A DNA stretch of 37,819 nucleotides, taken from positions 1-37,819 of the forward strand of contig JABCYQ010000027.1 of NCBI GenBank assembly GCA_013290125.1, read 5' to 3'. This document shows positions 17,342 to 29,244 of the stretch, piece after piece. How positions within the stretch are numbered: position 1 is the stretch's first letter; every line of letters starts with the position of its first letter. Origin of the DNA: Vulcanimicrobiota bacterium (GTDB lineage Bacteria > Vulcanimicrobiota > Vulcanimicrobiia > Eremiobacterales > Eremiobacteraceae). A model generated the notes under the pieces. It saw only the letters and a list, made by a program, of their open reading frames with translations. It was not told the DNA's origin and made no database searches. Position numbers and translations under genes: made by a program.

Positions 17342-17842
17342 ATGAGAACCTTTCTCTGCACCGCCGCGGCCGTCGCGCTGCTCGCGATCACACAGCCGCT
17401 CGCCGCGGCGGCAGACGTGCCGCTTGCCGTCGGCAAACCCGCGCCGCCGATCTCGCTGTTGTCGGTGGGCGGCAAGCCCATCACGCTTGCGCAATTCAAG
17501 GGCCGGCCGCTGTACGTCAACTTCTTCGCGAGCTGGTGCGGGCCGTGTAAAATAGAACTCCCGTTTATCATCAAACAGTACCCGGCGTATAAGTCGCGCG
17601 TCACATTTCTCGGCATCGACGAGCTGGAGTCGCCTGCGCAAGTGAACGCCTTCACGAAGCAGATCGCCATCCCGTATCTGATCGCCCTCGACCCCGGTCC
17701 GGCCGGCAGTTCGTACGAGATCGAAAGCCTGCCGAAGAGCATCTTCATCGACAAGAACGGGATCGTCCGCGCGATCTGGCGCGGCTACATCACGCCGACG
17801 ATCTTCCGGCAGAACATGGACGTGATCGCCGGCTCTCCGTGA
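17342..17842 (+). CDS. Secreted TlpA/ResA-like thiol-disulfide oxidoreductase
   Basis: 166 residues from the ATG at 17342. A signal peptide (about 1-24) is followed by an AhpC/TSA-thioredoxin-type domain: GKPAPPISLLSVGGKPITLA, the active site WCGPC at 65-69, and the cis-proline region SLPKSIFIDKNG. It should act in the periplasm or on the cell surface as a thiol reductant, for example in cytochrome c maturation. The stop overlaps the next start (GTGA), which is an unusual partner. Confidence 0.9.
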   Translation: MRTFLCTAAAVALLAITQPLAAAADVPLAVGKPAPPISLLSVGGKPITLAQFKGRPLYVNFFASWCGPCKIELPFIIKQYPAYKSRVTFLGIDELESPAQVNAFTKQIAIPYLIALDPGPAGSSYEIESLPKSIFIDKNGIVRAIWRGYITPTIFRQNMDVIAGSP

Positions 17843-19416
17843 ACCTGGCGCTGGTCGTCTCCGAGTTCATCGATCGAGCGCGCTCGCTCTACGGATCGGA
17901 GCTCGCGGTGACCTGTGGGTCCGTGCAGCTCACATATCGCGCGCTCGCCGAACGGATCGACCGGCTCTCAGGTGGCCTTGCCGGCCTCGGCGTTAAACGC
18001 GGCGATGTCGTCGCCTACGTGTCTTTCAATTGCCATCGTTTGTTGGAAGGCTACTACGCGGTTCCGCAGATCGGCGCGGTGCTGTTGCCGATCAACATCA
18101 GGCTCAAGCCGCACGAAATCGAATACATCCTTGCTGACGCCGGCGCAAGCGTCGTGATCGTGGACCGAGCGCTGACGGCGCTCATCGCCCCGATCGCGAG
18201 CAGACTACCGGCGTTGCGGCGCGTCGTCCTAATGGGCGATGCGCCGGCCGATCCGGCACTCGACGGCGACGACTACGAGCAATTGCTTTCGAGCGCACCG
18301 CCGTCGTTCGCTCGCCCTGAGCTCCAGGAGTCGGACCTCGCCGAACTCTTCTACACGAGCGGCACGACGGCCCAACCAAAAGGGGTGATGCTGACCCAGC
18401 GGCAGCTCTATCTGCACGCCTTGCATTGCCTGATGAGCCTCTTCTTGGATGACACGACAGTGCTGCTGCACAGCATCCCTCTCTTTCACGTGAATGGTTG
18501 GGGCTCTCCGCATTTCATCACGCTTGTCGGTGGACGACACGTCATGCTCGCGCGATTCGATCCGGCTCAGGTTCTCGCAACTATCGAGCGCGAACGCGTG
18601 ACGCTCATTTTTCTGGTGCCGACGATGGCGCACGCCCTTGCCTCGGACCCGTCCTGGCCGACACGCGACCTCCGGTCCTTGAAGCGAGTCATGCTCGGGG
18701 GCGCCGCCGCCTCGCCGAGCCTGCTCCGCGCACTGGATGAGCGGCTCCCGGATTGCCTCGTGACTTGCGGTTACGGCCTCTCGGAAACGTCGCCCGTCCT
18801 GACCATCGCGAACGTCAAGCGCGGCGGCGCCACAACGATCGATGGATCGCGCGCAGTGCGCTCAACCGCTGGCTTGCCTATACCAGGCGCAAGGATCGAG
18901 CTGATGGATGACGATGGCGCGCTGCTGCCGCACGACGGCGCGAGCACCGGGGAGATCGTTGTACGATCGAACTGGGTCATGGACGGCTACTGGCGGCAGC
19001 CGGAGGCTTCAGCCGGGGCGTTGGCGCACGGCTGGTTTCACACCGGCGACGTCGGTTCCATAGATGCAGACGGATACGTGCACATCGTCGATCGAAAAAA
19101 AGACATCATCATCACGGGCGGCGAGAACGTGCCGTCGATCGAGATCGAAAAAGCGATCTACGAACATGCAGCCGTCGCGGAGTGCGCGGTCATAGCGGCG
19201 CCCGATGAGCGGTGGGGTGAAATCCCGCTCGCCATCGTCTTCCTTAGACCGGATGCGCGCGCAGACGAAGCCGAGATAATCGAACATTGCAAGCGCGTTC
19301 TGGCGAACTTTAAAGTACCGCGGCGCGTCGTCTTCGCCGATGCACCGCTTCCGAAAGGCGGCACCGGCAAAATTCTCAAGCGCGAACTCCGCGACCGCTA
19401 CCTCAAATCGCTCTGA
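17839..19416 (+). CDS. AMP-forming acyl-CoA synthetase (long-chain fatty acid-CoA ligase type)
   Basis: 525 residues, GTG start overlapping the thioredoxin stop. Activates a carboxylic acid to acyl-AMP and then acyl-CoA. ANL-family motifs: YTSGTTAQPKG at 172-182 (ATP loop), GYGLSETSP, GWFHTGDVG, DRKKDIIITGGENV (hinge and A8), and the C-terminal catalytic Lys in GGTGKILKRELR. Substrate chain length cannot be read from sequence; the beta-oxidation genes at 27-31 kb suggest fatty acids. Confidence 0.93.
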   Translation: MNLALVVSEFIDRARSLYGSELAVTCGSVQLTYRALAERIDRLSGGLAGLGVKRGDVVAYVSFNCHRLLEGYYAVPQIGAVLLPINIRLKPHEIEYILADAGASVVIVDRALTALIAPIASRLPALRRVVLMGDAPADPALDGDDYEQLLSSAPPSFARPELQESDLAELFYTSGTTAQPKGVMLTQRQLYLHALHCLMSLFLDDTTVLLHSIPLFHVNGWGSPHFITLVGGRHVMLARFDPAQVLATIERERVTLIFLVPTMAHALASDPSWPTRDLRSLKRVMLGGAAASPSLLRALDERLPDCLVTCGYGLSETSPVLTIANVKRGGATTIDGSRAVRSTAGLPIPGARIELMDDDGALLPHDGASTGEIVVRSNWVMDGYWRQPEASAGALAHGWFHTGDVGSIDADGYVHIVDRKKDIIITGGENVPSIEIEKAIYEHAAVAECAVIAAPDERWGEIPLAIVFLRPDARADEAEIIEHCKRVLANFKVPRRVVFADAPLPKGGTGKILKRELRDRYLKSL

Positions 19417-19422
19417 CCTCGA

Positions 19423-19827
19423 TTGTCTGAAGGGGCCGATTTTATATCGGCCCTCGCTGAATTCGCCTCAACATCACCGGTCGATGTCTTCGCAGGAGGC
19501 TGTCAACGGCCGCGCAGCATGCCCGCGAGGACGCTCCTTCGCTCGCATCCAGCGAGGCGAAGTTCTCTCGGTTCACTTCGTCGCTCTCGCCATCCATGGC
19601 TCCGCTCCTCGTTCAACGCCTCGCTTGGCATGCCGCGTCGGCCGTTGACGTCGCATCCCCACGGCATCACCGGCGATGGCGAAAGCCGGGGCGTCTGAGG
19701 CGGCGAGAGCCGCCGAAGTCGAGCGGCGGAATTTGCCATCCCGATGCTCCGCCGCGTCCCCGGCGAAGACATCGACCGGTGATGCTGCGACGAGGATAGG
19801 ACCGATCAGATCGGCCTATTCAGACAA
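19423..19827. repeat. 405-bp non-coding element with long inverted terminal arms
   Basis: This fills nearly all of the 415 bases between two convergent genes. The ends TTGTCTGAA (19423) and TTCAGACAA (to 19827) are exact complements. Next inward each arm carries a small GGCCGAT-type hairpin (19433-19453, and an imperfect one at about 19792-19817). Then follows a perfect 22-base inverted repeat at 19472-19493 versus 19763-19784. Inside are further hairpins: a long imperfect one with arms at about 19501-19530 and 19622-19651 (shared GTCAACGGCCG and GCATGCC), a 6-bp stem with GAGA loop at 19699-19714, and an 8-bp stem at 19723-19755. No convincing gene lies inside. It resembles a MITE-like or palindromic intergenic element, or a multi-branch structured RNA. 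No target-site duplication is obvious. Confidence 0.75.
19428..19454. repeat. GGCCGAT hairpin, copy shared with the 29.1-kb locus
   Basis: An 8-bp stem (GGGCCGAT/ATCGGCCC) around a 5-base AT-rich loop, preceded by TGAAG. The 25 bases from 19428 are identical to those from 29126. No U-run follows on either strand. Confidence 0.8.
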
Positions 19828-19831
19828 GCTC

Positions 19832-20608
19832 TCAACCGGAGAGGCGACGGCGTAGAACGCGTTGCGGCAGCCACACGACAAGGACTATCGCTAAAGCGAG
19901 CCACCCGACTTCTCGCAGCGTGGACAGACTCGGCGTGCCCGCGATCAAGGCGCGGCAAGCGCTGACCGCATGATAGAGCGGCGTAGCCCACGCGACATAC
20001 TGCGTCCACCGCGGTAGCCTGTCCAGCGGGAAGAACACGCCGGCGAACATCACAAGCGGCGTGACGAGCAGCGCGAAGTAATAGAAGAGATGTTCCGGCG
20101 TCTTGACGATGAACGCCACATAGAGCGCCGGAATCGCGAACAGCAAGCCGGTCAGCGCGAGGACCGGTAAACAGAGCAGTGCCAGCCACGAGTGCACGAG
20201 ACCGAGCGCCGCGATCACCACGAGAAAGATCGCGCCGTACAGCGTCGCGCGAAACGCCTGCCAGAGATATTCGCCGGCGGCGATCTCTTCCGGTTCTACA
20301 GGTGCGGTGACCATGGATTCGTAGACGCCGTTTGTGGTCAGCCGCTCGTAGCCGCCCCACGCGGCGTCGAACGTCGCAGCGTTGACCGCGGTCAGTGCGA
20401 GCATTCCCGGCCCGAGGTACTGCAAGAGAGAGCCCTGTCCGCCGAAACTGAAGTAGGCGCCGAAGCCGTAGCCGAAGGCGACGAAGTACACCAGCGGCTC
20501 GATGATGTTGATCGTGATGCTCGACCAGGCAAAAGTTTTCCACGCGAGCAGATTGCGGTGAAACACGCGCCACGCGTTCGGACGAAGGAAAGCGAGCAGC
20601 GGATTCAA
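19832..20608 (-). CDS. ABC-2 type exporter permease, NodJ-like
   Basis: 258 residues. I choose the TTG at 20608, whose bases overlap the ATPase stop as TTGA; the frame is open upstream but that is shadow of the ATPase gene. Six membrane segments are visible. The pattern, including FVAFGYGFGAYF, YLGPGMLALTAVNAATFDAA and the LVTPLVMFAGVFFPLDRLP region, matches NodJ/DrrB-type permeases. With the ATPase it should form an exporter of a lipid, oligosaccharide or drug-like molecule. Substrate unknown. Confidence 0.88.
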   Translation of the reverse strand: MNPLLAFLRPNAWRVFHRNLLAWKTFAWSSITINIIEPLVYFVAFGYGFGAYFSFGGQGSLLQYLGPGMLALTAVNAATFDAAWGGYERLTTNGVYESMVTAPVEPEEIAAGEYLWQAFRATLYGAIFLVVIAALGLVHSWLALLCLPVLALTGLLFAIPALYVAFIVKTPEHLFYYFALLVTPLVMFAGVFFPLDRLPRWTQYVAWATPLYHAVSACRALIAGTPSLSTLREVGWLALAIVLVVWLPQRVLRRRLSG

Positions 20609-29068: not shown

Positions 29069-29108
29069 CGACACCTCGACGATTTGATCGATCGATCGGC
29101 AATCTCAC

Positions 29109-29221
29109 TGAAGGGGCCGACTTTTTGAAGGGGCCGATTTTATATCGGCCTGCCTTTCGTTCGCTCCACTCGGATTTTGAAGGGGCCGACGCTGGTCGGC
29201 CCTCAAAAACTGGGCCCCTTC
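29109..29221. repeat. Cluster of GAAGGGGCC/GGCCGAT hairpin repeats between convergent genes
   Basis: Three direct copies of TGAAGGGGCCGA begin at 29109, 29126 and 29178, and an inverted GGCCCCTTC lies at 29213-29221. The copy at 29126 is identical over 25 bases to 19428-19452. The copy at 29175-29208 forms a strong stem (GGCCGAC/GTCGGCC) flanked by TTTTGA/TCAAAA. A wider imperfect pairing (CGTTCG with CGAACG) encloses it. Neither strand shows a U-run after the stem. Confidence 0.75.
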
Positions 29222-29244
29222 GATATCCGAACGAAGTTAGATCG

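Follow-up and report, generated by a model that had tools for sequence, protein, structure and literature searches.

What kind of element fills the gap between two convergent genes in this genome, and how did it come to be there? The window, which is the whole stretch of 37,819 nucleotides that was analysed, belongs to a Vulcanimicrobiota genome of 2.9 Mb in 55 contigs (G000). In this window, a plus-strand gene for an AMP-binding long-chain fatty-acid--CoA ligase (17839-19416; PRK06187 subfamily, 558 bits with a cut-off of 476) faces a minus-strand gene for a NodJ-like ABC-2 permease (19832-20608) that scored below the NCBIfam cut-off and above the Pfam cut-off. The space between the two stop codons is filled by one element at 19423-19827, to which no strand was assigned. 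An earlier note on this DNA had given its coordinates, its convergent-gene setting, tips that are exact 9-base complements (19423-19431 and 19819-19827) and a perfect 22-base inverted repeat (19472-19493 and 19763-19784), and all of these were exact on re-check. Around the tips and the 22-base repeat the pairing extends further, with arms of 34 nt (88%) and 23 nt (83%). The MFE of the element was -222 kcal/mol, compared with -164.7 ± 6.0 kcal/mol for 100 shuffled sequences (z = -9.5), none of which folded as low.

The element is a composite with the order REP - D - C - B - inverted REP. The left REP hairpin, CTGAAGGGGCCGATTTTATATCGGCCC (19427-19453, plus strand), carries a 13-mer head that is repeated genome-wide, and this hairpin type also flanks the gene for a REP-associated tyrosine transposase (RAYT) on contig C26 of G000. 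The right REP hairpin, GGACCGATCAGATCGGCCTATTCAG (19799-19823, minus strand), is inverted. A hairpin had been proposed for each arm; the right one is a degenerate copy, the intact counterpart of which is present in other copies of the element. Between the two REPs lie arm D (19463-19496, plus strand), which repeats the 3′ arm of module B in inverted form (34 nt, 88%), the palindromic module C (19506-19651, plus strand; covariance-model core 19514-19637), and the palindromic, cloverleaf-like module B (19661-19790, plus strand; model core 19670-19781), which has 29 matches in G000. The 22-base repeat is D paired with B. The REP-to-REP spacer is approximately 345 bp and falls outside the usual 20-100 bp, a range that is typical of REPIN/BIME elements and does not define them. 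Because its right REP is degenerate, the window copy is probably immobile. The last four bases of each tip are outside the repeat consensus, and the pairing of these bases is absent from other copies. Outward growth of the palindrome at REPIN tips was rejected as a general rule, as 12 of 13 pairs (some sharing an end) had no extra paired base, and the four extra paired bases of the window element may therefore be chance.

A search of G000 with the element returned 94 match pieces and approximately 28 strong copies with 76-93% identity, and many further places matched the outer hairpin only. The earlier note had been prepared to give up its proposal if no second copy turned up; dozens were found in this genome. 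The motif of the outer hairpin, the 13-mer CTGAAGGGGCCGA, has 298 exact occurrences in G000 compared with none for the reversed control, and it is a high-copy short palindrome of the kind that characterizes REPIN/BIME elements. When the copies were placed side by side, they formed a mosaic of three layouts: REP - B - inverted REP (~200 bp), REP - C - B - inverted REP, and the window type, REP - D - C - B - inverted REP (~400 bp). Among the 28 B-bearing copies, a REP was present on both sides in 12 and on one side in 11, with a chance expectation of about 1.7% per side; these counts are conservative, as degenerate REPs, the right one of the window among them, escape the scan and one copy ends at a contig edge. 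The scan detected no REP in the other five, one of which (L007) is cut by the contig end. A conserved tag is present at the outer foot of the REP hairpin, as in REPIN/BIME elements, where it is most often GTAG; here it reads CTGAAGG, not GTAG or CGTC. In a pattern scan of the genome contig collection, the lone match of the B core lay in an apparent coding sequence of an unrelated record and was judged to be chance. The window also contains a second REP cluster (29108-29225), in which partial CTGAAGGGGCCGA units in tandem, together with two hairpins, lie between genes that were called convergent. Elsewhere in the genome, five CTGAAGGGGCCGA REP heads in tandem at 18-base spacing adjoin a REPIN (L067, C2:150804-150888), and similar short tandem arrays follow L006 and L022.

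A Pfam search found a single Y1 transposase gene in G000, the one on C26, which matches NF047646 (REP_Tyr_transpos) with 91.8 bits and a cut-off of 80. It is flanked by four tandem hairpins of the CTGAAGGGGCCGA type on the left and by three inverted ones on the right. RAYT-type genes were present in 10 of the 14 genomes of the family, and nearly all of them are flanked by their own REP in the same arrangement; several of these REPs begin with GTAG. G000 also contains 23 exact units that consist of compact inverted REP pairs of 66-70 bp with related spacers. Inverse-orientation doublets at a preferred spacing are represented by these compact units, whereas the unit in the window, though inverted, is long and has one degenerate REP. 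REPIN/BIME elements are known from the literature by their inverted REP pairs, a high REP copy number and a RAYT gene with the cognate REP on its flanks (PMC3116915, PMC8266576). At the RAYT locus of G001 (L078, 1097-1384), about nine to ten tandem GTAG-type REPs lie upstream of the gene, and relics of a GTAG-type REP were seen in G000 as well, for example beside L002 and L016.

The history of the site was read from relatives. In G001, which is of the same genus (85% protein identity), the orthologous gap holds a single REP in the same place with the same TTGTCTGAAGGGGCCGA. In the more distant relatives G002, G004 and G011 there is no REP at the locus and the two stop codons almost abut. A gain of the repeat, or else parallel losses of it, must therefore postdate the split of the lineages of these five genomes. 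Presence and absence at orthologous sites, which is taken as a sign of mobility for REPIN/BIME elements, was thus observed at the window locus itself.

The element is very likely a composite, non-autonomous repeat of the REPIN/BIME type, in which two inverse REP hairpins, of the type taken to be the substrate of the RAYT, form a shell around a spacer that holds C, and B with its truncated inverted partner D. Points against this reading are the CTGAAGG tag, the degenerate right REP, a spacer several times longer than usual, the B copies without a REP and the presence of C in genomes without a detected Y1 gene. The earlier note knew of no named family with this layout, which is still the case for the interior modules, as a literature search of open-access papers found no described family that matches B or C; the shell, however, belongs to a named one. 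In the mechanism that we propose, the RAYT protein would mobilise REP doublets as single-stranded hairpins, so that the interior modules would travel along with the REP shell. The copies would persist mainly just downstream of stop codons, where they would do the least harm and may shape mRNA 3′ ends, and template switching at replication, in which one arm is corrected from the other, would account for at least part of the maintained pairing of the arms.

Searches of 61 genomes with covariance models of B and C gave different distributions for the two modules. Module B (~130 bp) was found in 9 of the 14 genomes of the family, with one marginal match outside it. Module C (~125 bp core) was matched in 35 of the 61 genomes, some of them from families whose genomes mostly gave no Y1 gene, and its core sequence is conserved across the bacterial class. 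In sister genera, B often occurs in inverted B′-B pairs approximately 20-50 bp apart (L118, L119, L128, L134, L136 and L149), and D may thus be the stump of a second, inverted B. Copies of B or C are also located in frame inside conserved genes, namely those for the ImuB-type polymerase (IMS domain) of G000, G001 and G002 and, in G005, those for a Mur-ligase/F420-ligase fusion and an Mfd-like protein (UvrB-interaction domain). In the imuB genes of G003, G004, G006 and G008, which lack the insert, the segments that flank the insertion site are at most ~22 nt apart, indicating that the insert kept the frame. In-frame insertion of this kind, as known from Rickettsia, is a property of other B and C copies and not of the window copy.

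These distributions bear on the strongest rival explanation, in which B and C would be selfish palindromes of the RPE type that move independently by a mobiliser of their own and for which REPINs are one landing site among others. It is a serious contender, somewhat more probably wrong than right. The presence of C in genomes without a detected Y1 gene, together with the B copies without a REP, indicates that the interior does not depend on the RAYT. The occurrence of both modules without REPs and in sister genera, the in-frame copies in imuB, the Mur-ligase fusion and mfd, and the presence or absence of C at the atpG-atpD junction described below also fit this explanation. On the other side, 23 of the 28 B copies in G000 adjoin REPs at similar spacing, which suggests that the whole unit was copied in this genome.

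The gene context of the copies raises the second alternative, which is that the element is a selected bidirectional terminator or mRNA 3′-end stabiliser between convergent genes, with copies domesticated for that role. In G000, 14 copies are in convergent, 10 in tandem and 2 in divergent gaps (26 intergenic), and 1 is intragenic; the C copies of other genomes were convergent in 14 cases, tandem in 20, divergent in 1, intragenic in 1 and unclassified in 4. The copies are usually located just 3′ of stop codons, and the gene pairs of the window, used as the only baseline, suggest that convergent gaps are a small minority. This enrichment at convergent gaps and near stop codons favours a role at transcript ends, as does the rarity of the divergent context (2 of 26 in G000, and 1 of the 35 C copies across the class for which both neighbouring genes were called) and the T-rich inner side of the REP hairpins in other copies (39% T compared with 26% outside). 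However, no intrinsic terminator, defined as a GC-rich stem followed by a T run, was matched in the window between 19200 and 20000, and relatives do without the element at the same locus. The same 3′-end bias has been described for REPs in general (PMC3733652) and would be expected of any tolerated insert, so the bias fits tolerance, a 3′-end role, or both. The bidirectional terminator suggested earlier is therefore borne out by position but not by a terminator signal in the window copy, and selection for such a role is rather unlikely to be the explanation.

The stems of both modules covary strongly. In B (62 distinct rows), 96.8% of the cells were paired and 204 cells were double-changed compared with 39.5 after shuffling, and in C the double-changed cells numbered 63 compared with 12.8, in alignments that were fitted to the structure by the covariance models and so lean towards it, and in which related copies inflate the counts. 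When the partner was shifted by one base, the signal was lost. The compensatory changes, the lack of which would have spoken against the proposal in the earlier note, are thus present in strength. Because of the fitted alignments and related copies, an alignment-free test was added for the arms outside the C core. Over 40 C copies taken from genomes other than G000, an arm scored 22.3 on average with its own partner and 6.9 across loci, and the own partner was the best in 35 of the 40. An earlier, overlapping set of C copies gave -32.9 kcal/mol with the own partner compared with -19.6 kcal/mol for cross-pairing, and the B arms gave a weaker difference (-30.8 compared with -23.5 kcal/mol). In 36 of the 40 copies, the C arm stem had a mean of 35 pairs, 88% of which were Watson-Crick. 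The C arms of different copies were barely more alike than shuffled arms.

Strong covariation in B and C, and the conservation of the C core sequence over the class, would also be expected if the two modules were functional structured RNAs in their own right and were located inside REPINs by chance. This third alternative appears improbable. Rfam searches with strict and permissive settings gave no relevant match at the element and none at gathering score. Some copies of the modules are read in frame as part of proteins, and relative to genes the modules are found in either orientation. The changes in B are mostly double-sided with few G-U intermediates. In the C arms (L181-L220, model strand), A.C mismatches exceeded G.U mismatches (54 versus 18 and 30 versus 6), and this excess does not follow the transcribed strand. 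Being independent of gene orientation, the asymmetry was not accepted as evidence that the transcribed strand is under selection. Of the structured RNA suggested in the earlier note, the covarying stems stand, but their pairing may have DNA-level causes.

What was most surprising in the analysis were the arms of C, which are self-complementary and in part match the host. The C copies have arms that are specific to each locus, and in one genus a copy at an apparent atpG-atpD junction (the gene names come from how the translated ends read) is present in G046, G055, G052, G026 and G045 and absent from G016, G041, G053 and G021. The left arm of this copy opens with the final codons, Gly-Val-Glu-stop, of the gene upstream, which are recognisable in the element-free relatives too, and the right arm is an inverted copy of this host gene end. 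The valine codon varies between GTA, GTC and GTT, and the far arm agrees with it in G046, G052 and G026. There is no such agreement in G055, and G045 has diverged further. A comparison of G046 with G055 revealed a two-base insertion and two substitutions, each matched in both arms. Such a matched insertion would be poorly explained by single-step selection and well explained by template switching, which has been documented for other hairpins (PMC8794818, PMC8604942). A coding region extends into the C arm at 14 of 45 facing gene ends, as judged by our own simple gene caller. At a second site, where G028 was compared with the element-free G051, the stop codon is likewise located in the arm, but the gene end differs from that of relatives, so that the copying may have run in either direction. 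Within the ATP synthase operon (L221-L223, L225 and L228), the core of the element has opposite orientations in different species.

The host-derived arms are a strong lead from one well-sampled locus and no proven rule. A tentative reading, which we hold to be somewhat short of evenly balanced, is that C is a class-wide, self-extending palindrome with a dispersed core. At each site, the flanking host sequence would serve as the template for an inverted copy that forms the outer stem, and this template could include the stop and last codons of an adjacent gene; the stem would later be kept paired by arm-to-arm correction.

The last alternative is a classical MITE, which would be mobilised by a DDE transposase and leave target-site duplications. 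It is very improbable: the size and terminal inverted repeats fit, but visual inspection of unit ends showed no direct duplication, and these ends are REP hairpins common to the RAYT locus. The MITE-like transposable element of the earlier note is thus supported as to kind, a dispersed and apparently mobile repeat, but the family is REPIN/BIME, tied to the RAYT Y1 transposase.

With the composite REPIN/BIME-type repeat as the preferred reading, the shell is known, and the long nested mosaic interior and the host-matching arms are new. REPINs would then serve, in an uncharacterised lineage, as shells for much larger folded cargo. The copies, of which there are dozens, can be set against empty sites in closely related genomes and so provide natural test beds for the origin and upkeep of long paired stems, by selection on RNA or by arm copying. 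Should host flanks prove to be the source of the arms, covariation by itself would be unsafe evidence of a functional RNA in such repeats.

The element is similar to the REPINs (PMC3116915) and BIMEs (PMC8266576) described previously in its inverted REP pair, in a REP copy number in the hundreds, in the presence of this REP around the RAYT gene, and in the compact doublets of fixed length and the neighbourhood of stop codons. It differs in the spacer, which consists of approximately 345 bp of other repeat families in place of the usual 20-100 bp (PMC3733652), and in the tag, CTGAAGG in place of GTAG or CGTC. The GTAG/CGTC REP dimers with structured spacers (PMC3733652) likewise have their tags outside and spacers with stem-loops of their own, are located mostly in convergent or tandem gaps near stops, and include inserts in DNA-repair genes; in contrast to these, the spacer modules described here are dispersed families, one of which is widespread in the class and found outside REP dimers. 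The B and C copies in frame in conserved proteins resemble the Rickettsia palindromic elements (RPE; described in PMC3733652), but the bacteria are unrelated and most of the copies here are intergenic and often wrapped by REPs. With template-switch palindromes (PMC8794818, PMC8604942) they share double-sided changes, few intermediates, a compensated indel and an inverted copy of adjacent host sequence, with the difference that the process would here work at the edge of a dispersed repeat and extend its stem into the coding ends of host genes.
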